Source of the DNA: Lachnospiraceae bacterium
Lineage (GTDB): Bacteria; Bacillota; Clostridia; Lachnospirales; Lachnospiraceae
NCBI GenBank assembly: GCA_017446045.1
Contig: JAFSRP010000013.1
Location: forward strand, 1-37,267
Reading direction: 5' to 3'
DNA length: 37,267 nt
Position numbers and translations under genes: made by a program. Each line of letters starts with the position of its first letter. Positions within the stretch are counted from its first letter, which is position 1. Under the pieces are notes generated by a model, which was not told the DNA's origin, did no database searches, and saw only the letters and a list, made by a program, of their open reading frames with translations. Of the stretch, positions 6,316 to 25,621 are shown in pieces.

Positions 6316-6393
6316 AACCATATATGATCATCCTGCCGCAAAGGCAGGTCCATGCGGCTGTAACTGGAGTCTATGTGTCTATCGGAGGTTAGT

Positions 6394-9300
6394 ATGAAGG
6401 AAAAGAATGGCAAACTGTTTGCTGCCATTCTGGCTGCCGTGATGTCGCTGATACTGGCATTCAGCGCATTTGCGGCCACCGGATCGGCGGCGGTCAAAGA
6501 AGACTCCGGAGAGGAGTCTCCCTGGGCGCTTTACCTTGTAAAGGATGAGGTGCCTGAAAATGAAGTCAAACTCACCGGTCTGAAGATCGATGATATTTCC
6601 ATGAGACCCATCTTCAGCGGTTTCAGCCCGGATACGGCGGAGTATGACGTCAATGTCCAGGATGATATTTACGGAGTCAGGATCACGCCGAAGGCAGCGG
6701 AGGGCGTGAAGATCACCGTCAACGACGAAGAGCTCACGGACGGAAGTTATCTGCTGCAGCTGCCGCAGGGCATTGATGATTACTTCGAAGACCAGACGGC
6801 GGCGGCGGTCATTAAACTCGAGGAAGAAGACAGAATCGGTACTTATACAGTCAATGTCGTAAGGAAAAAGGCGACCGATGTCTATGATCTCTTCGAAGAG
6901 AAATGCTATGAGGATGAGGAGACCGGTCTGACGCTTCCATATGAGCTCTATGTTCCGGGCGACTATGACGCAACCAGGAAATATCCGGTAGTCCTGGTGC
7001 TGCACGGCGCGGGCCAGAGACTGCAGCCCCTGTACATGCTGCTGGCACGCTACCAGGAAGCGACGGCATGGGCGGTCGACTCCGAGGCAGGCCACAACCA
7101 GTGTATCGTCGTCAGCCCGCAGGTGACTGCGGCAGAGGGCAATGGGTGGACCGAGTTCATGAAGCCGTATGATAAGAGCCTCAGGACCGCGGAAGACATC
7201 AAGGCGGAAGTGGATCCCTACGAGCTCCAGGACTGGGGCATTGCTGCCCATAACCTGCTCAAGGTGATCGAGGATGAATACAGCGTCGATACCGACAGGG
7301 TCTACGCGACCGGACTTTCCATGGGCGGCTTCGGCTCCTACGCGCTGGCAGTGGCTTATCCGGAAGACTTCGCCGCGATCTCACCGGTCTGCGGCGGTCT
7401 TGATCCCGAGCAGGCGGCAGTGCTTGCCGAAAATAAGATCGCGGTATGGCACACTCATTCCAAGGACGATGACCAGGTCCTCTTCGATGACTTCGGCCAG
7501 ACCTCCATCGACGCGATGGCAGCGGCAGGCGTGGAGTATCGGACCCAGCTTTACGAACCGGGTGAAGTATTCTATCCCGGTCCGCATTTCAGCTGGACAG
7601 CAGCCTACGCGAACCGGGAGATGAGAGACTGGATCTTCGCACACAGCAAGGCGGAGAATGCGGACCTCCTCAGCGGGCTTAAGATCGACGACATTTCCAT
7701 GAAGCCCATCTTCAGCGGCTTCGATCCGGCAGCCCATACCTATACCGTCAGTGTCCAGGAAGATATCTACGGTGTGCGGATCACCCCGAAGGCAGCAAAA
7801 GGCGCGAAGATCACCATAAACGGCGAAAAGGTCAAAGCGGGCGGAAGCTATCTGCTCCAGCTGCCGCAGGGCCTGGATGACTATTTTAAGGATCAGGAGC
7901 GGAATGCCATCATAAAGGTATCCGAAGGTAAGAAGAGCGCGACCTACATCGTCAGTGTCGAGAGGAAAAAGGCGACCGGGGTCTACGATCTCTTCGAGGA
8001 AAAATATTTTGAGGACGAAGAGACCGGCCTGACCCTTCCCTACGAGATCTATGTGCCGAGCGACTATGACGAGACCAAAAAATATCCCGTAATGCTGGTA
8101 CTGCACGGCGCCGGTCAGCGACTGCAGCCGCCGTACATGCTGCTGGCGCGCTACCAGGAAGCGACTGCCTGGGCAGTGGATTCCGAGAAGGGACACAACC
8201 AGTGCATCGTGATCAGCCCGCAGGTCACCAAGGCGGACGGCAACGGCTGGACCGACTTCCTGATCCCGTATGACAAGGGGCTCAGGACTGCGGAAGACAT
8301 GCTCGCGGAAGCGGATCCGTACAAACTCCAGGACTGGAGTATCGCAGCTTATAACCTTCTCCATGCGGTCGAGGACGAATACAGCGTCGACACCGACAGA
8401 GTTTATGCTACCGGCCTTTCGATGGGCGGCTTCGGCTCCTACGCGATGGCAGCAGCCTATCCGGAAGAGTTCGCGGCGATCGCGCCGATCTGCGGCGGCC
8501 TTGATCCCGAGAAGGCAGAGGTGCTTGCCGAGAACAGGATCGCGGTATGGCACGCGCACTCCAAGGATGACGACCAGGTACTGTTCGACGATTTCGGACA
8601 GCCTACCATCGACGCGATGGAAGCGGCAGGCGTGGAGTATCAGACCCAGCTCTTTGAGCCGGGCGAAGTCTTCTACCCCGGCCCGCATTTCAGCTGGACA
8701 CCTGCGTATGCGAACCAGGAGATGAGAGACTGGATCTTCGCCCACAGTAAGGCGGAGAATGCGGATCTCCTCAGCGGTCTCAAGGTCGAAGACATTTCCA
8801 TGAAGCCGATCTTCGAAGATTTCGATCCGGCGACCCATACCTATACCGTCAATGTCCAGGATGACATTTACGGCGTAAAGATCACCCCGGAGGCAGGTGA
8901 GGGCGCTGCGGTCACGGTGAATGGCGAGGAACTCACCGACGGCAGTTACCTGCTGCTCCTGCCGCAGGGTCTGGACGATTACTTCAGGGATCAGAAGAAG
9001 AATGCCATCATCAAGGTTGAAGACGGCGACAAGACCGGCACGTATATCGTCAGTGTTGTGAGGAAGAAAGCGACCGAGGTCTACGATCTCTTCAAGGAGA
9101 AATACTATGAGGACGAAGAGACAGGGCTGACCCTTCCATATGAACTGTATATCCCGAGCGATTATGACTCTTCGAAGAAGTATCCCCTGATGCTTGTACT
9201 GCACGGCGCCGGTCAGAGACTGCAGCCGCCGTACATGCTGCTGGCTCGCTACCAGGAAGCGACTGCGTGGGCAGTGGACTCCGAGGCGGGACACAACCAG

Positions 9301-9855
9301 TGCATCGTGCTGAGTCCGCAGGTCACCGAGGCGGACGGCAACGGATGGACCGACTTCCTGATCCCCTATGACAAGGGACTCAGGACTGCGGAAGACATGC
9401 TCGCGGAAGCGGATCCGTATAAGCTCCAGGACTGGAGCATCGCAGCCTACAACCTGATGCATGAGATCGAGAAGGAATACAGTGTAGATACCGACAGGGT
9501 CTACGCGACCGGCCTTTCGATGGGCGGCTTCGGTTCCTACGCGATGGCAGCAGCCTATCCGGAAGAGTTCGCGGCGATCGCGCCGGTCTGCGGCGGCCTC
9601 GATCCCGAGAAGGCAGAGGTGCTTGCAGAGAACAAGATCGCGGTATGGCACGCGCACTCCAAGGATGACGATCAGGTCCTCTTTGACGATTTCGGACAGC
9701 CTACCATCGACGCGATGGAGGCAGCAGGTGTGGAGTACAGGACCCAGCTCTTCGAGCCGGGCGAAGTCTTCTATCCCGGCCCCCATTTCAGCTGGGTACC
9801 CGCCTATGCCAACCAGGAGATGAGAGACTGGATCTTTGAACACAGCAAGAAGTAA
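6394..9855 (+). CDS. Exported protein with three tandem cadherin-like + alpha/beta-hydrolase esterase units
   Basis: 1153 residues from ATG 6394 (GGAGG five bases upstream; an ATG at 6373 lacks a site). A signal peptide ends near AFAA (about residue 28). The rest is three near-copies of a roughly 366-residue unit starting at residues 60, 426 and 793. Each unit has a Cadherin-like beta-sandwich (PF12733 type: LxGLKxxDISM.PIF..F.P....Y.V.V) followed by an alpha/beta-hydrolase of the PHB-depolymerase/CE1/prolyl-oligopeptidase kind. Each keeps an oxyanion-type VLHGAGQRLQ, nucleophile GLSMGGFG (Ser309, Ser676, Ser1042), an Asp cluster KDDDQVLFDDFG and PGPHFSW (His398, His765, His1131), so all three should be active. 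No anchor motif is visible, so release is likely. The substrate is not readable; acetyl or feruloyl esters of plant polysaccharide are possible. A single-unit paralogue follows. Confidence 0.85.
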   Translation: MKEKNGKLFAAILAAVMSLILAFSAFAATGSAAVKEDSGEESPWALYLVKDEVPENEVKLTGLKIDDISMRPIFSGFSPDTAEYDVNVQDDIYGVRITPKAAEGVKITVNDEELTDGSYLLQLPQGIDDYFEDQTAAAVIKLEEEDRIGTYTVNVVRKKATDVYDLFEEKCYEDEETGLTLPYELYVPGDYDATRKYPVVLVLHGAGQRLQPLYMLLARYQEATAWAVDSEAGHNQCIVVSPQVTAAEGNGWTEFMKPYDKSLRTAEDIKAEVDPYELQDWGIAAHNLLKVIEDEYSVDTDRVYATGLSMGGFGSYALAVAYPEDFAAISPVCGGLDPEQAAVLAENKIAVWHTHSKDDDQVLFDDFGQTSIDAMAAAGVEYRTQLYEPGEVFYPGPHFSWTAAYANREMRDWIFAHSKAENADLLSGLKIDDISMKPIFSGFDPAAHTYTVSVQEDIYGVRITPKAAKGAKITINGEKVKAGGSYLLQLPQGLDDYFKDQERNAIIKVSEGKKSATYIVSVERKKATGVYDLFEEKYFEDEETGLTLPYEIYVPSDYDETKKYPVMLVLHGAGQRLQPPYMLLARYQEATAWAVDSEKGHNQCIVISPQVTKADGNGWTDFLIPYDKGLRTAEDMLAEADPYKLQDWSIAAYNLLHAVEDEYSVDTDRVYATGLSMGGFGSYAMAAAYPEEFAAIAPICGGLDPEKAEVLAENRIAVWHAHSKDDDQVLFDDFGQPTIDAMEAAGVEYQTQLFEPGEVFYPGPHFSWTPAYANQEMRDWIFAHSKAENADLLSGLKVEDISMKPIFEDFDPATHTYTVNVQDDIYGVKITPEAGEGAAVTVNGEELTDGSYLLLLPQGLDDYFRDQKKNAIIKVEDGDKTGTYIVSVVRKKATEVYDLFKEKYYEDEETGLTLPYELYIPSDYDSSKKYPLMLVLHGAGQRLQPPYMLLARYQEATAWAVDSEAGHNQCIVLSPQVTEADGNGWTDFLIPYDKGLRTAEDMLAEADPYKLQDWSIAAYNLMHEIEKEYSVDTDRVYATGLSMGGFGSYAMAAAYPEEFAAIAPVCGGLDPEKAEVLAENKIAVWHAHSKDDDQVLFDDFGQPTIDAMEAAGVEYRTQLFEPGEVFYPGPHFSWVPAYANQEMRDWIFEHSKK
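6571..9855 (+). repeat. Three direct repeats of about 1.1 kb within the esterase gene
   Basis: Units begin at 6571, 7669 and 8770 (spacings 1098 and 1101 bp), with high similarity at both protein and nucleotide level. Long stretches of units 2 and 3 are nearly identical, for example around GGACTGGATCTTCGC and the GGCGGC nucleophile region. This implies recent duplication or ongoing gene conversion. Confidence 0.92.
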
Positions 9856-10024: not shown

Positions 10025-10110
10025 GTCATTAGAACAAGTTTGGTTGCGGTTTTTTTAGTGTAACAGGTTCGTTGTTTTATTGTTATCGACAGCAGATTGG
10101 AGGAATTCAG

Positions 10111-11502
10111 ATGAAGAAGTTAAATCTGTCGAAACAGCTCTGCGGATTTGTTTCCGTACTTCTGGCAGGCGTGCTGATCTTTTCGCTTGCGGCATTCGCG
10201 GCGGGAACTGCAGCCGAGACCCCGGCGGAGGCTCCGGAAGAGATCGAAGCGGAGGCGGAAGCCGAAGCTCCGGCAGAGCTCGCAGAACTGGAGGATCTCG
10301 AGATCATCAATGTAGCCCAGACGATCACGCCCAGAGATTTCAAATTCGTTCCCGGCAAAAAGACCTATAACGTCACCGTAGTGGAGGATGACTACGCCGT
10401 ACTCTTTACCCCGACCTTCGAGGAGGGTGAGATCATCGTCACTTCCGAAGGACTTGACGGCTTCCTCTGCACCACGGGCACCGATCTCGGCAATCCGCAG
10501 GCGAGCGGCAAGGGTGAAATGGCTACGGAGCTGACGATACAGCCTGGCGACACCTTCTTCCTTACCCTTACACAGAAGCGTATGGCGGCATACTGCGCGG
10601 ACGACGTGGCAGCCGGCAAATTCGCATGGGGCATGGAAATGGATCAGGACTATACCGTCACTATCCAGACGGCTAAGGGCGATTATACCATCAATATCCA
10701 CAGGCCGAATTCACTCCAGTGGGCATCAAAATTCAAGAGATACCAGACCGACCTCGGTGAGATCGATAAGGAATGTGAAGGCCTGCTCCAGGATTACTGG
10801 CTCTATGTGCCCGAGGACTACGACGAGGAGAAAGAATATCCGCTCGTTCTCATCCTTCATGGCGGCGGCCAGAGACTGAATGACGCTGCGGATATCCTCC
10901 TGCGCTATACACAGACCACGGTCTTCCCGAAATACGGCAAAGAGGTCATTGTCCTTGCACCGCAGGCACAGACGACTACGCATGACTATACCGATGCCAA
11001 TGGCTGGGGCAATGTCTCCGAGCTTACCATTTTCGGTAAGGGCGCGATGTGGGCACTGAAGGACACCATCGATAAATACAGTGTAGACACCAAAAAGCTC
11101 TATGTAGGCGGCTGCTCCATGGGCGGTATGGGAACGATGGCATTCCTGACGAACTATCCGGACGTTTTTGCAGGCGCTATCATCAACTGCGGCGGTGCCT
11201 CCGTTCCGGAAGGCATGGAGCCAGAGGAAGGCGCGGCTCTCTTTGCGGAGAAGATGAAGGACTCGGAGACCGAGCTCCTGATCGTCCATGCGGTGAAGGA
11301 TCCCACTGTTCTTTACGAGCGCGGCGAACAGCTTATGGATGCCCTCGATGAAGCCGGGAAAAAATACGAGAAGATCATCTATGATGAGGATACCTTCCTG
11401 TATCCATCCGGCCACTTCAGCTGGACACCCGCATTCAACAGTAAGGAGACCATCGAATGGCTCCTTGCTCAGGAGAGAAAGACCGAAGCCTCCGGCTTCT
11501 GA
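10111..11502 (+). CDS. Exported single-unit esterase (alpha/beta-hydrolase), paralogue of the preceding gene
   Basis: 463 residues from ATG 10111 (GGAGGA 7 bases upstream). The signal peptide ends near AFAAG (about residue 31), then comes an Ala/Glu/Pro linker, then a beta-domain (about 65-205) related to but longer than the cadherin-like part of the upstream protein, then the esterase domain (about 215-455). Hydrolase elements are LILHGGGQRL, nucleophile GCSMGGMG (Ser336), AVKDPTVLYERG (acid region) and SGHFSWTPAF (His435). It probably acts outside the cell on an ester substrate of the same class as the three-unit enzyme. It has its own promoter and a terminator, so it can be expressed separately. 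Family confident; substrate unknown. Confidence 0.85.
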   Translation: MKKLNLSKQLCGFVSVLLAGVLIFSLAAFAAGTAAETPAEAPEEIEAEAEAEAPAELAELEDLEIINVAQTITPRDFKFVPGKKTYNVTVVEDDYAVLFTPTFEEGEIIVTSEGLDGFLCTTGTDLGNPQASGKGEMATELTIQPGDTFFLTLTQKRMAAYCADDVAAGKFAWGMEMDQDYTVTIQTAKGDYTINIHRPNSLQWASKFKRYQTDLGEIDKECEGLLQDYWLYVPEDYDEEKEYPLVLILHGGGQRLNDAADILLRYTQTTVFPKYGKEVIVLAPQAQTTTHDYTDANGWGNVSELTIFGKGAMWALKDTIDKYSVDTKKLYVGGCSMGGMGTMAFLTNYPDVFAGAIINCGGASVPEGMEPEEGAALFAEKMKDSETELLIVHAVKDPTVLYERGEQLMDALDEAGKKYEKIIYDEDTFLYPSGHFSWTPAFNSKETIEWLLAQERKTEASGF

Positions 11503-21150: not shown

Positions 21151-21211
21151 TAAGGCGCCGGGCAGGGATGGGATAGGAAGCAGAACGCAGAAACTCAGGA
21201 AAGGTAAAGTG

Positions 21212-22039
21212 ATGGATCAGAATGAGAGACTCGATTACCTGATCGAACAGTTTAAAAACGAATCACCAAAGTATCGGAGCCTGTATATCCCGGAAGACCG
21301 GGAGGGAAAGCAGCGGACTCTTCGCGCGCTCATGAATGTACGTATGCCGAAGATCCTGCCTGCATCTGCCCTTGCGGTTCAGGATGCTTATCTGCAGGAA
21401 CGCAGCCGTGAAAACGGAATCGTGAATGTGGCGGATATCCCTACGATTGCGGCGCTGGGCAGCAGGCACAGCTTTGGAGACCGCATATCCTTATGGCAGG
21501 GTGATATTACACGGCTGGCGGCAGATGCGATCGTCAATGCGGCCAATTCCGGGATGCTCGGCTGTTTCGTGCCCAACCACAAGTGTATCGACAATTGCAT
21601 CCATACCTTTGCGGGCATACAGCTCAGAGCGGAATGCAGCCGCCGGATGGAGCGGCTGCGGGAAGAGTTCGGACCGGATTATGAGCAGCCGACGGCCGTT
21701 CCGATGCTGACGGACGGATACAATCTTCCTGCACGGAAGGTGATCCATATCGTCGGGCCGATCGTAGAGGAACAGCTAACATCGGAGCATGAGGAACTGT
21801 TGGCGGAATGCTATCGGTCCTGTCTGGACCTTGCCGCTGAAAACGGTCTGAAGTCGGTCGCTTTCTGCGGTATTTCAACAGGTGTCTTTCATTTTCCGGC
21901 ACATCGGGCTGCAGCGATCGCTGTTCAGACTGTGACAGACTGGCTGGGGTCCCACCCCTCTGTGATCGACAGGGTCATTTTCAATGTCTTTGGAGATGAG
22001 GCGCGCAGGATCTATGAGCAGGAACTGTTGGGAAGCTGA
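21212..22039 (+). CDS. Zinc-type macrodomain protein-ADP-ribose hydrolase
   Basis: 275 residues from ATG 21212 (AGGAAAGG upstream; a GTG at 21209 is equally near). An N-terminal helical extension (about 1-85) precedes the macrodomain. ISLWQGDITRLAADAIVNAANSGMLGC is the ADP-ribose pocket, followed by PNHKCIDNCIHTFAGIQLR, whose Cys/His residues match the zinc-binding insertion of the SauMacro/SpyMacro class. Further on are PTAVPMLTDGYNLPARKVIHIVGPI and FCGISTGVFHFP. Characterised members remove mono-ADP-ribose from proteins, usually beside a sirtuin-type transferase (SirTM) and a GcvH-like carrier. Neither is in this window; the neighbour is the SRAP gene, hinting at a DNA-damage setting. That link is inference. 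Confidence 0.88.
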   Translation: MDQNERLDYLIEQFKNESPKYRSLYIPEDREGKQRTLRALMNVRMPKILPASALAVQDAYLQERSRENGIVNVADIPTIAALGSRHSFGDRISLWQGDITRLAADAIVNAANSGMLGCFVPNHKCIDNCIHTFAGIQLRAECSRRMERLREEFGPDYEQPTAVPMLTDGYNLPARKVIHIVGPIVEEQLTSEHEELLAECYRSCLDLAAENGLKSVAFCGISTGVFHFPAHRAAAIAVQTVTDWLGSHPSVIDRVIFNVFGDEARRIYEQELLGS

Positions 22040-22228: not shown

Positions 22229-22759
22229 ATGGATGTTTTATCAGTGTTAAAGATCATATGGACAGAAAAGACTGTATTGGACGGGTGCATTTTTCTCGTC
22301 GGCATTCTGAATCTGTATATTTATTTCCGCGCCAGGCGGGTGACAAAGCGCCTGCAGGATCACTTTTCTAAGATCGACCGGATGTCGGCCCTGCCCAGGG
22401 ATTCTGCGGAAAATATCCGTGCCGTCACGGGGGAGGCTTCGCTCATGGCACCGGAGACGCTGTTGGAATGCCGGGACAGGATGAATAAGTATTACTCGAT
22501 GTTCAGCATCATTACGACGATGTTCCCGCTGCTGGGACTGCTCGGCACGGTCGCATCGCTGATCCCCATGGTCAACAGTATCGGCGCCGAAGACGTTCAG
22601 CTTTTCTTTGGGGCATTGACCTCCACATTCTGGGGGATCGTGTGGGCGCTGATCTGTAAGTTTTTTGATATTTTTATCGGTTACAAAGTAGAAGATAACG
22701 AGAAACGCATTGAATTTCTACTGAACCCGAAAAGGACTGCGGATGAAAAGAGGGAATAA
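22229..22759 (+). CDS. MotA/TolQ/ExbB-like proton-channel subunit
   Basis: 176 residues from ATG 22229 (GGAG about 13 bases upstream; GTG 22217 is an alternative). Three membrane segments are visible: about 18-36, about 93-118 (YSMFSIITTMFPLLGLLGTVASLIPM) and about 132-152 (GALTSTFWGIVWALICKFF). PLLGLLGTV...L and the Thr/Ser-containing third helix are the signature of the TolQ/ExbB/MotA channel family (PF01618). In known systems five copies surround two ExbD/TolR/MotB-type subunits and turn proton flow into mechanical work. The last 17 bases overlap the next gene, an ExbD-like protein, which fits translational coupling of partners. The cytoplasmic loop is short. Family confident; the energised process is unknown. 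Confidence 0.85.
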   Translation: MDVLSVLKIIWTEKTVLDGCIFLVGILNLYIYFRARRVTKRLQDHFSKIDRMSALPRDSAENIRAVTGEASLMAPETLLECRDRMNKYYSMFSIITTMFPLLGLLGTVASLIPMVNSIGAEDVQLFFGALTSTFWGIVWALICKFFDIFIGYKVEDNEKRIEFLLNPKRTADEKRE

Positions 22760-23450
22760 TCTGGATTTCACGCCTCTGCTGGATGTGATCATGATCCTTC
22801 TTTTCGTGATCCTTGCCGGCATCGGGCGGCGTGCGGCGGTGACCAGGGCAGAGCTTACCGAGGCAGAGTTCCGGATCGCTGAGCTTGATGAGAGCAGGGA
22901 AGCGTTGGAGGAATCGGTAGGTCTTCTGGAGGAGTCAGTCACGCTTCTTGAGGAGCAAAACCGCGCAATGACGGAACAGCTTGATGAGATATCGCAGCAA
23001 TACGGCGATCTGCGCGCGATCACGGAGTATGACAGGGATCATCTTTATGCTTATCCGGCAGTCCTTCGGAGAGTGACCAAACTGACGCTGGTATGCATGC
23101 CGGAGGAAGACATCCACACCGGAGACTGGAGCGTGCATGTGGACCTCTATATGGATAATGATTACGATAACGATCTGGTCTATCTCGGCACACACACTCT
23201 GGTCCATGATTATGAGCTGACGCAGGAGCAGCGCCGTCTGCTGACTGCACGCCAGGAGCTCGAGACCACCGGATTTCTCAGCCAGTATCTGGAGCAGGAT
23301 GTCACGGAGTACTGCTATGTTACGATCCAGTACCCGGTGAACGACGCGCATTTTTCAAGTATTGATCTGGACATACTGGAAAAGTCGGTCAGCAACACAC
23401 AAAACCGCCTGGGGCTCAGGTGCTATATCGAGCGTGCCGGGATCTATTAG
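22743..23450 (+). CDS. ExbD/TolR-like membrane subunit with coiled coil
   Basis: 235 residues from ATG 22743, overlapping the channel gene by 17 bp. The N-terminal NLDFTPLLDVIMILLFVIL is the ExbD/TolR transmembrane helix with its proton-carrying Asp (Asp14). A Glu/Leu-rich coiled coil follows (about 37-82), then an unrecognised soluble domain (about 95-235: RVTKLTLVCMPEED, WSVHVDLYMDND, YCYVTIQYPVND). In ExbD, TolR and MotB this part lies outside the membrane and contacts the cell wall or a partner. It lacks an OmpA-type peptidoglycan-binding motif, so it is neither MotB nor ZorB. It is probably the non-rotating or pairing subunit of a proton-driven complex with the gene before it. Confidence 0.75.
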   Translation: MKRGNNLDFTPLLDVIMILLFVILAGIGRRAAVTRAELTEAEFRIAELDESREALEESVGLLEESVTLLEEQNRAMTEQLDEISQQYGDLRAITEYDRDHLYAYPAVLRRVTKLTLVCMPEEDIHTGDWSVHVDLYMDNDYDNDLVYLGTHTLVHDYELTQEQRRLLTARQELETTGFLSQYLEQDVTEYCYVTIQYPVNDAHFSSIDLDILEKSVSNTQNRLGLRCYIERAGIY

Positions 23451-23465
23451 TAAGCGGGGGTCAGT

Positions 23466-23957
23466 ATGGGAAAAAAGAAAAAGGCGGCATTTGCCGGCGG
23501 CGCAGTCGTACTTGCAGCAGCTTTGCTGTCGCGTCTGCCGCAGCTTCCGGGATTAGGCGGCGGGAACGGGTTCGGGATCTTTGGAGGGACCGGATCGGGT
23601 GTGCAGCAGGAAGCAGCTGCCGAGCAGACCGGAGCGATCGAGGAAACGGAAAGCGCAGCTGACATGATCGAAGAAACCGTCACCGATGAGAGAACGGAAT
23701 CAATGATCGACATGACGGAAGAAGAGGGTGCGGATGAGTCTGCTGAGGAGACCGAGGAGCCGGCGATCGAGTATGTGATCGAGATCAGGGATGACGAGTA
23801 CTTTCTTGAAGGGACAAAGGTCAGCGAAGAGAGGGTCGAAGCTTTCCTCCGGGAAGGCGGTGCGGTCTTCCGGATCGATAATAATTACGGATCCCGCAAG
23901 GCCGTCAGCAGACTCAAGGAACTGTTTCTCGAGTATGATGTCCCGTTCGTGGAGTAG
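23466..23957 (+). CDS. Membrane-anchored acidic protein with ExbD-like C-terminal end
   Basis: 163 residues from ATG 23466, 15 bp after the ExbD-like gene. Lys-rich N-terminus (GKKKK), one membrane helix (about 8-24), a Gly-rich stretch, an acidic linker (about 45-97), then a compact C-terminal domain of about 60 residues. There, IEYVIEIRDDEYFLEGTKVS, VFRIDNNYGS and LKELFLEYDVPFVE follow the beta-alpha-beta pattern of the ExbD/TolR extracytoplasmic domain (strand, residue-choosing loop, helix, 'D.....' turn, helix, last strand). No TPxxDV-type channel helix is present. It may be a third subunit or a TonB-like partner that reaches through the wall. The similarity is by pattern only; no family name is claimed. 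Confidence 0.6.
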   Translation: MGKKKKAAFAGGAVVLAAALLSRLPQLPGLGGGNGFGIFGGTGSGVQQEAAAEQTGAIEETESAADMIEETVTDERTESMIDMTEEEGADESAEETEEPAIEYVIEIRDDEYFLEGTKVSEERVEAFLREGGAVFRIDNNYGSRKAVSRLKELFLEYDVPFVE

Positions 23958-23999
23958 AGAAACGCCGGGGCGGGTCTGATCCCTGTCGGAGGGAAGAGT

Positions 24000-24248
24000 A
24001 TGAATGAACCGTATATAAGGATAGATCTGCACGGAATGACGCAGGAGCAGGCCATTAAAGTGATCGATAAGGCACTTGCCAATGCCGGACCTGCAACCTA
24101 TCAGCTGCAGCTTGTCCACGGGTATCACCGGGGAACAAATCTGCGTTCCATGATCCGGGACTGGTATCAGTATGATCCCAAGGTCAGACGCATCATGCCG
24201 GGGGACAATCCGGGGATCACCGTGCTTGTCCTGAAGGAACTGTATTAA
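24000..24248 (+). CDS. Smr-domain protein (small MutS-related)
   Basis: 82 residues from ATG 24000 (GGAGG about 8 bases upstream). Smr signature: IDLHGMTQEQAIKVIDKAL, then LVHGYHRGTNLRSMIRDW and PGDNPGITVLVLK. The canonical DLHG and HGxxxGxLR motifs are present with HGYHRGTNLR. Free-standing Smr domains act as nicking nucleases on branched DNA or on RNA; in bacteria some, such as SmrB, cut mRNA at collided ribosomes. This protein is the bare domain without a MutS part. It lies in the middle of the ExbB/ExbD-like operon with gaps of 42 and 23 bp, which is an unexpected setting for a nuclease. Confidence 0.85.
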   Translation: MNEPYIRIDLHGMTQEQAIKVIDKALANAGPATYQLQLVHGYHRGTNLRSMIRDWYQYDPKVRRIMPGDNPGITVLVLKELY

Positions 24249-24271
24249 GGTGTGACGAAAACGGAGCGGTC

Positions 24272-24442
24272 ATGGAACAGTGTGAGACCTGTGCGTATTA
24301 CGTATTTGATGAAGAGTATGACGAGTACGTCTGTGACGTGCAGATGGATGAAGATGATTATTACAGGCTGGCGGAAGGCCGACGCCGCAGCTGTCCGTAT
24401 TACCGAAGCGGGGACGAATATCTGATCGCCCGGAAGCAATGA
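24272..24442 (+). CDS. DUF6472-like 56-residue cysteine protein
   Basis: Small gene, ATG 24272 to TGA 24440-24442, with GGAG 6 bases upstream. Its product starts MEQCETCAYYVFDEEYDEYV, continues CDVQMDEDDYYRL and ends SCPYYRSGDEYLIARKQ. Four cysteines (CxxC, then single C and CPYY) suggest a small metal-binding knuckle. The pattern recalls DUF6472 proteins of Clostridia, whose function is unknown. It sits 23 bp after the Smr gene and 21 bp before the MFS gene, so it is part of the operon. Residue composition (acidic, Tyr-rich) and codon choice look genuine. Confidence 0.75.
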   Translation: MEQCETCAYYVFDEEYDEYVCDVQMDEDDYYRLAEGRRRSCPYYRSGDEYLIARKQ

Positions 24443-24463
24443 AGGCATAAGGAGATCAAAGTG

Positions 24464-25621
24464 ATGAGTTCCATGCTTATTGCGGTAATCTACCTGATCT
24501 TTATCAGCCTGGGACTGCCGGATTCGCTGCTTGGAGCGGGATGGCCGAAAATGCAGACGGCGTTCGGAGTGCCGTCTGCCTGGGCAGGATATGTGTCCAT
24601 GACGATCTCTTTTATGACGATCATTTCCGTCCTTTGCAGTCCTGAGCTGATCCGCAGATTCCAGACAAAGTGGATCGTGATCGTCTCTGTTTTTATGACG
24701 ATCCTTGGTCTGCTGGGTTTTTCATTTTCCGGAAGATTCTGGATGTTGTTTCTTTTCGCTGTGCCCTACGGACTCGGGGCCGGAGCGATCGACGCGTCGA
24801 TCAATCATTATGTGGCAAATCACTATCCGTCTTCCGTCATGAATTTCCTGCATTGCTTTTACGGTGTCGGTGCGGTGATCAGCCCTTTTATCATGTCATT
24901 TGCCATTAAGACGGCCCGTTGGAATGAAGGGTACCGTTGGACGGCATATCTTCAGACCTGTATCATGCTGGTATGCATTCTGTCGCTGCCGCTCTGGAAG
25001 CAGAACGAATCCCGGGAACAGGAAGATGATCATGACAGCGCCGGGGTATGGGAAATACTGAAAGTGCCGGGTGTACTTCTGACACTGATCGCGTTCTTCG
25101 CCTATTGCTCCGGTGAGGCGACCTGTTCCCTGTGGACACCCAGCTATTTCGCAGGTACAAGAACAGGTCTGGATGACGGGACCATTGCTTCTTTCGGTTC
25201 GCTCGTCTTCGGCGGCATGATGCTGGGCCGGTTTCTCTCCGGTCTCACTTCCGACAAGCTGGGTGACAGACGCCTTATCCGCATCGGCGTTGTTCTCGAG
25301 GTCTTTGGGATCCTGCTGGTCCTCATTCCCACAATGGGGTGGGCCCCGGCGGCTACCGGCTTTCTGATCATCGGGACCGGTATGGGGCCCGTTTTTCCCT
25401 CGATCCAGCACATGGCCCCGGTCAATTTCGGCAAACGCTTCAGTGCGGCTGTGATCAGCCTGCAAATGGCATCCGCCTATATTGGTATGACGTTTATGCC
25501 GATGGTTTTCGGGCATATCCAGCAGGCCGTGGGAATCGGCATCATGCCAGTGTATCTGCTTTCATTTGCGGTCCTGAATCTTACGATGCTGGAGATCGCT
25601 TATCGTCGTCTGAAAGCCTGA
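24464..25621 (+). CDS. MFS transporter
   Basis: 385 residues from ATG 24464 (AAGGAG upstream; GTG 24461 is equally well spaced). About 12 hydrophobic segments. The first loop has GLPDSLLGAGWPKMQTAFGVP, helices 4-5 have GLGAGAIDASINHYVANHYP followed by NFLHCFYGVGAVISP, and the second half has GRFLSGLTSDKLGDRR, the repeated MFS loop motif. GLPDSLLGAGWP and the NHYV/NFLH pair recall the FucP/YfkF-like sugar or unknown-substrate MFS group. It is the last gene of the ExbB/ExbD-like run; a 78-bp gap follows. The substrate is unknown, and its link to the proton-channel pair may only be co-transcription. Confidence 0.85.
   Translation: MSSMLIAVIYLIFISLGLPDSLLGAGWPKMQTAFGVPSAWAGYVSMTISFMTIISVLCSPELIRRFQTKWIVIVSVFMTILGLLGFSFSGRFWMLFLFAVPYGLGAGAIDASINHYVANHYPSSVMNFLHCFYGVGAVISPFIMSFAIKTARWNEGYRWTAYLQTCIMLVCILSLPLWKQNESREQEDDHDSAGVWEILKVPGVLLTLIAFFAYCSGEATCSLWTPSYFAGTRTGLDDGTIASFGSLVFGGMMLGRFLSGLTSDKLGDRRLIRIGVVLEVFGILLVLIPTMGWAPAATGFLIIGTGMGPVFPSIQHMAPVNFGKRFSAAVISLQMASAYIGMTFMPMVFGHIQQAVGIGIMPVYLLSFAVLNLTMLEIAYRRLKA

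Follow-up and report, generated by a model that had tools for sequence, protein, structure and literature searches.

The closest described relatives of the gene system analysed here are the Ton, Tol-Pal and AglRQS systems. In the Ton system (ExbB-ExbD-TonB), ExbD Asp25 and ExbB Thr148 and Thr181 are named as essential in a review that also describes the binding of TonB by a pair of ExbD domains and a peptidoglycan-binding region of ExbD, the role of which it leaves open (PMC12905483). ExbBD and TolQR fall into a non-flagellar clade together with some proteins of unknown function (PMC12505986), and in the Myxococcus system AglRQS, one TolQ/MotA-like protein is combined with two TolR/MotB-type proteins, AglQ and AglS both being predicted to carry a membrane Asp (PMC9389320). 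A further study describes vWA proteins as force transducers next to TolQ-like motors and, in the PVC group, tolR-like genes in pairs, and calls the occasional Ton systems of monoderm Clostridia likely non-functional (PMC12204202). We analysed a stretch of 37,267 nucleotides from a Lachnospiraceae bacterium (assembly GCA_017446045.1, contig JAFSRP010000013.1; hereafter the window), which carries three adjacent genes, here called B, D and T, for a channel subunit, an axle subunit and a third anchored protein related to these systems. No description of such a B-D-T triad was found among the matches listed in a literature search, most subscription papers being outside its reach.

Predicted Architecture of the Three Subunits

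Gene B (22229..22759, forward strand) encodes a MotA/TolQ/ExbB-type channel subunit of 176 amino acids (aa) with three predicted transmembrane helices. It matches the Pfam family MotA_ExbB (PF01618) with an E value of 1.8e-10 and 41.1 bits against a cut-off of 22.9. An earlier reading of the window by a model that saw only the letters (the sequence-only reading) had picked out the channel signature PLLGLLGTV in this protein, and the motif was located within FPLLGLLGTV at residues 99-108. Searched against the PDB, the profile of the B family retrieves chains of MotA, PomA, TolQ and ExbB and, weakly, ZorA (E 0.043). Using hhalign against E. coli ExbB (E 3e-6), Thr107 corresponds to Thr148 and Thr133 to Thr181, as counted along the alignment. 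Together with Gly103 and Gly106, these two threonines are invariant in an alignment of 52 of 52 triads collected as described below, and hydropathy assigned three transmembrane helices to B in 41 of the 52.

Gene D (22743..23450, forward strand) encodes an ExbD/TolR-type axle subunit of 235 aa with one transmembrane helix and a long predicted helix. Near its start it carries FTPLLDVIMILLF, an ExbD-like membrane helix with Asp14, which lies inside the transmembrane helix predicted for residues 9-27. The sequence-only reading had called D ExbD-like with Asp14 as its key residue, which was borne out by the hhalign comparison with ExbD (E 2.6e-4), where Asp14 is aligned with Asp25 (again counted along the alignment), and by the invariance of this residue in the aligned D proteins of all 52 triads; 47 of these proteins contain the simple pattern L[LI]D[VIL], and hydropathy gave a single transmembrane helix in every one. 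The D family profile matches TolR in the PDB at 0.004. Pfam ExbD (PF02472) is matched by 15 of 33 D family members at E ≤ 0.01, and the D proteins of two loci, L059 and L074, exceed the cut-off of 25.4 over most of the model (26.3 and 26.2, respectively). The D protein of the window (P0002) has no Pfam ExbD match, its sole Pfam matches being of coiled-coil type and below cut-off. In the structural model, a long helix spanning residues 10-101 is followed by an alpha/beta domain of low confidence, for which neither VIA-align gave a clear structural match nor Foldseek any match at E ≤ 0.001. The predicted rod would extend for about 70 residues past the membrane, or roughly 10 nm, a length comparable to the membrane-to-wall distance of 90 Å quoted for Gram-negatives (PMC12905483).

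Gene T (23466..23957, forward strand) encodes a protein of 163 aa, which consists of an N-terminal transmembrane helix (the only one predicted, residues 7-25), an acidic linker and a C-terminal ExbD/TolR-like domain. Between residues 45 and 98, 21 Asp or Glu residues stand against one Lys or Arg. The C-terminal domain was modelled confidently, with block means of the predicted local distance difference test (pLDDT) of 94-97, and the predicted fold of the last 64 residues (100-163) resembles the periplasmic domain of ExbD/TolR according to VIA-align, in agreement with the ExbD-like domain on an acidic stalk that the sequence-only reading had proposed. Foldseek alone returned nothing for T at E ≤ 0.001, a profile search of the PDB with T did not find ExbD, and the window's T has zero Pfam matches. 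A search of the membrane proteins against profile databases, which the same reading had suggested, thus recognised B (PF01618) and gave no Pfam ExbD match for D or T of the window. None of the 52 T proteins has an Asp or Glu in the core of its best-scoring transmembrane helix, and a His is found in the predicted helix of just one; because T carries no membrane acid, we do not regard it as a second axle. Hydropathy gave one transmembrane helix for T in 27 of the 52 triads and two in the other 25.

Distribution and Gene Order of the Triad

Loci were gathered through B, so T was not sought blindly, and its recognition used an iterated profile. When a profile was rebuilt from the 99 other T-type proteins with the window excluded, the window's T was the only one of its 39 genes to match at E ≤ 10 (3.7e-11); the window's T had itself taken part in gathering the 99 proteins, which leaves a slight circularity. 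A single-sequence phmmer search with the window's T found T in L084 and L100 only.

Among the long loci, 76 places match B, with D next in 70 and T after that in 61. Removing near copies (B more than 90% identical) left 60 non-redundant loci in which B and D are neighbours, and T follows directly in 52 of them. T lies in the cluster of three further loci, a few genes on in L075 and just before B in L108 and L109; these last two are divergent triads with a short B of 132 and 135 aa as called. Two B-D loci (L039 and L077) end at a contig edge, and the three without T (L078, L079 and L081) are all gammaproteobacterial. Three more loci proved to be complete triads on inspection and were left out of the 60-locus counts, as one gene of each had escaped the gene caller (B for L084 and L095, D for L037). 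Dozens of loci share these three genes and their order, which is more than chance would give, and B-D-T is a recurrent unit. The sequence-only reading had made co-occurrence across loci a check of its proposal, and this holds for the third gene and fails for the Smr and mini-protein genes that follow it in the window (see below).

In the genus sample, B was matched in four of 25 genomes, own genome included; one of these four (G012) has a weak match in a frame of 595 aa that is apparently of a different kind. The family sample gave B matches in 90 of 397 genomes at E ≤ 1e-3 and in 29 at E < 1e-9, and the class-level sample in 104 of 391 at E ≤ 1e-3 and in three at better than 1e-20, own genome included in both stricter counts; the fourth-best class-level match drops to 8.6e-11 and lies in a frame of 282 aa. 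Most of the weaker matches in the family and class samples (uncounted, in frames of about 260-300 aa) we take for flagellar MotA. The contigs of named genomes contribute 45 loci, mainly from Lachnospiraceae, Oscillospiraceae and other Clostridia, with one from Erysipelotrichaceae and four from outside Bacillota (L078-L081). From these match counts and named loci, the system is patchy yet spread across several families.

Extended forms of the locus occur in Lachnospiraceae (L005 6881-10452, L006 212-3819, L059 and others), with AIM24, B, D, T, a second T-like gene and an exported-looking protein; two genomes of the genus sample (G007 and G008) have the same six. In the 60 non-redundant loci, AIM24 precedes B in 14 (on the opposite strand in L101), a second T-like gene lies behind the triad in 24, and an exported-looking protein of one cluster (cluster 2) is likewise present in 24. 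The AIM24 of L005 was confirmed by Pfam, and the cluster 2 protein has a tRNA_anti-like match in the L059 member and none in the L005 member. In the 13-row clade that contains the window's B, no further gene stands at a fixed place beside the triad, and recurrence of other gene clusters is confined to the pair L045 and L054 and to broad superfamilies whose place varies.

Selection, Descent and Envelope

In the pairs of relatives compared, B, D, T and the second T all show fewer non-synonymous (pN) than synonymous differences (pS), which indicates purifying selection in these relatives; for the window, a relative close enough to be compared in this way is lacking. The ratio dN/dS was about 0.02 for B, 0.07 for D, 0.08 for T and 0.20 for the second T in the pair L059/L062, and 0.02, 0.05 and 0.16 for B, D and T in L044/L047. 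Synonymous change was saturated in several pairs, for which the ratio is omitted, and the pair L083/L110 is identical and uninformative. Pairwise distances correlate between the three proteins (B-D 0.83, B-T 0.78, D-T 0.79), at a level that none of 999 permutations reached, as joint inheritance of the genes would predict.

We built a quick tree of 75 rows, in which a length filter had retained 12 of 27 MotA candidates. The 12 MotA sequences form a clade (support 99), which joins E. coli ExbB, TolQ and the gammaproteobacterial L078 (84). This branch does not include the B proteins of the triads, and the window groups with L085 (99) within the set of 13 rows (95). Some branches are long and 32 of the 72 inner forks are weak, and a ZorA-like protein is placed among the triad rows via a long branch that the program distrusts.

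The sequence-only reading had described the locus as lacking TonB in an apparently monoderm bacterium. In agreement with this, the own genome gave no match for Omp85, TonB_C or a TonB-dependent receptor barrel, searches that returned matches in 7, 3 and 3 of 14 control genomes, respectively; with the own genome about 79% complete, this absence is no proof.

Comparison with Known Motor Systems

The triad shares with the Ton system a set of three membrane proteins, the alignment of B with the pore threonines of ExbB and of D with the Asp of ExbD, and a domain of T with the predicted fold of the ExbD periplasmic domain. It differs in that B lies outside the ExbB/TolQ branch and that the third protein has an ExbD-type domain in the place of TonB. 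As neither TonB_C nor a receptor was found in the incomplete own genome, we did not assign the triad to the Ton system. It differs from Tol-Pal (TolQ-TolR-TolA) in the lack of an Omp85 match in the same genome and in T, which has a short acidic linker and, in 51 of 52 cases, no His in its transmembrane helix. With AglRQS it shares one TolQ/MotA-like and two TolR/MotB-type proteins; both axle-type Agl proteins are predicted to carry the Asp, whereas T does not (PMC9389320). The motors with vWA transducers are likewise uncharacterised 5:2-type motors with an unusual partner, but in those the partner is a membrane-tethered vWA protein in diderms and here it is an ExbD-type domain in Clostridia (PMC12204202).

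ZorAB and the OmpA-type MotAB belong to the same motor superfamily, and the weak profile match of B to ZorA has been given above. PADLOC gave zero matches for the window's B, and its weak matches for D (LmuB and a type I specificity subunit) map to the coiled coil of that protein and are not of Zor type; with no relevant PADLOC match for B, D or T, we rejected a link to defence. A role as flagellar stator was also rejected, as the retained MotA rows form their own clade without B and neither D nor T of the window matches OmpA in Pfam. Elsewhere in the same genome, a 10-kb contig (G000:C61 4759-7104, locus L146) carries a MotA-like protein of 454 aa paired with an OmpA-type MotB-like protein of 324 aa, and this pair matches the ZorA and ZorB profiles (7e-21 and 9e-71).

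A Proposed Motor and Its Alternatives

Starting from gene content, order and conservation, the motifs, the predicted fold of T and the purifying selection in relatives, we infer a 5:2 complex, its ion, the transfer of force through T and a target. The reading that we favour as the probable one is that B-D-T is a self-contained ion-driven motor of the 5:2 type with T as its output partner, in an envelope without an outer membrane. B would form a pentameric ring, as in motors of the MotAB, ExbBD and TolQR kind, and two D helices would occupy the pore of this ring. Asp14 of D would bind and release an ion opposite Thr107 and Thr133, the threonines of the B ring, and the long helical rod of D would carry the movement outward. 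T would act as a separate anchored output partner, its domain docking on the outer domain of D or on the cell wall, and might pass the force on within the envelope, where the wall is a first guess for the target. A more far-reaching proposal, to which we give slightly less than an even chance, is that such triads represent a distinct class of ion-driven 5:2 motor in bacteria without an outer membrane, in which an ExbD/TolR-type outer domain is also borne by a separately anchored, acid-less T, which is obligate and carries the output, probably to the wall, and to which some Lachnospiraceae add AIM24, a second T and an exported-looking partner.

The alternative that survives best, although we consider it unlikely, is a gated ion channel or pressure valve, in which B and D would leak protons or Na+ when T senses the wall or the envelope, with no rotation or force involved. 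The small domain of T on its flexible acidic linker would suit a sensor, and it is in keeping with a valve that the window's own clade has no further gene at a fixed place beside the triad. Energy conversion, by contrast, is what the Asp/Thr set serves in known members, and its strict conservation here, together with the long helical rod in the model of D, speaks against a valve.

It is quite improbable, in our view, that the locus holds a leftover Ton-type ExbBD pair, derived from a diderm ancestor or from transfer and functionless in a monoderm. The verdict on occasional Ton systems in monoderm Clostridia (PMC12204202) and the patchiness of the triad, with B in 29 of 397 family genomes and 3 of 391 at class level at the stricter thresholds, would fit such a remnant. 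Its motif residues, however, do not vary in any of the 52 triads, the relatives show lower pN than pS in all of B, D, T and the additional T-like gene, and T is kept wherever this could be checked outside the gammaproteobacterial loci; moreover, the genome has no TonB or receptor match and the triad B proteins stand apart from the ExbB/TolQ/MotA branch (84). We hold as little expectation for a two-axle system like that of Myxococcus, in which a D-T heterodimer would sit in the pore of B. The composition of AglRQS, one TolQ-like and two TolR-type proteins (PMC9389320), and the paired tolR-like genes of the PVC group (PMC12204202) offer precedents, but AglQ and AglS are both predicted to have the membrane Asp (PMC9389320) that T lacks in 52 of 52 cases, and 25 of the 52 T proteins have two predicted transmembrane helices.

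Neighbouring Genes and Other Features of the Window

Three genes follow the triad on the same strand, and we judged all three to be outside the motor: a small Smr-domain protein of 82 aa (24000..24248; Pfam Smr 7e-9), a DUF6472 mini-protein of 56 aa (24272..24442; Pfam 2.3e-24) and an MFS transporter of 385 aa (24464..25621; Pfam MFS_1 3.8e-32). The six open reading frames of 22229-25621 and their spacing are as the sequence-only reading had given them, with an overlap of B and D (-17 bp) and gaps of 15 bp between D and T, 42 bp between T and Smr, 23 bp between Smr and DUF6472 and 21 bp between DUF6472 and MFS. A scan for consensus promoters was uninformative, with 3 found against 3.6 expected from shuffles.

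That all six genes form one machine, a motor coupled to nucleic acid handling or translation stress via Smr and the Cys mini-protein, is suggested by the short gaps and the single strand but is hardly credible and largely refuted by gene context, as in 30 other triad genomes Smr is never on the contig of the triad and DUF6472 never next to it, and one of them (G354) has a small Smr and DUF6472 less than 1 kb apart on contig C5 and the triad on C52. The undescribed ion-driven envelope machine of the sequence-only reading is thus supported as a motor by the recurrence of the triad and its motifs, and loses its link to nucleic acids or translation. A BLAST search at E ≤ 1e-3 found no homologue of Smr, DUF6472 or MFS in the other long loci, a test that decides little because it missed the window's T too. 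The fair test was a Pfam family search of 31 whole genomes, 30 of which have the triad (G004 lacks it). All 31 have Smr matches, for the most part within open frames of about 500-850 aa. DUF6472 was found in 27 genomes, 26 of them among the 30 with a triad; in 25 of these 26 its contig is not that of the triad, and in G065 the two share a contig at a distance of 85 kb. Both are widespread but lie away from the triad elsewhere; Smr and DUF6472, which had been put forward as machine parts, are common family genes that happen to sit downstream here. In G354 the two lie on one strand (C5, 15957-17029) away from the triad, so they may go together without the motor, and their pairing in the window may be an association of its own. 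The Smr protein of G004, 74% identical to that of the window, lies beside what we read as an apparent acetyltransferase and a LysR regulator. The MFS transporter, which the sequence-only reading had listed among the six genes, was rejected, as neither BLAST nor phmmer found it in the remaining long loci (E ≤ 1e-3), no profile test having been made.

A macro-domain protein is encoded directly upstream of B (21209-22039). We rejected it as a part of the motor, as homologues near the triad in three of the 60 loci (the window, L006 and L087) are too few. In L006 (3822-4970) and L087, the macro gene is followed by a protein of one and the same cluster, which is vWA-like by a sub-cut-off Pfam match in L006. 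Further from the triad, a protein of 1160 aa (6373-9855) apparently consists of three near-identical esterase-like repeats in tandem, and a seemingly single-unit relative of it is encoded at 10072-11502, both judged by eye. At 3-1805 lies a surface-type protein cut by the window start, in which neighbouring leucine-rich repeat units are near-identical by eye; we take these units to be of the BspA-like kind.

Implications of a Proposed Motor in Clostridia

In the accessible parts of the sources cited above, the uses described for this motor family, flagella and phage defence aside, act at the outer membrane. A conserved and selected triad in Clostridia that apparently lack this membrane raises the question of the task of the motor there. 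The three-gene system offers a testbed for an ExbD-type domain that would receive or transmit force apart from the axle, and the triad argues against reading every ExbBD-like pair of Clostridia as a dead remnant.

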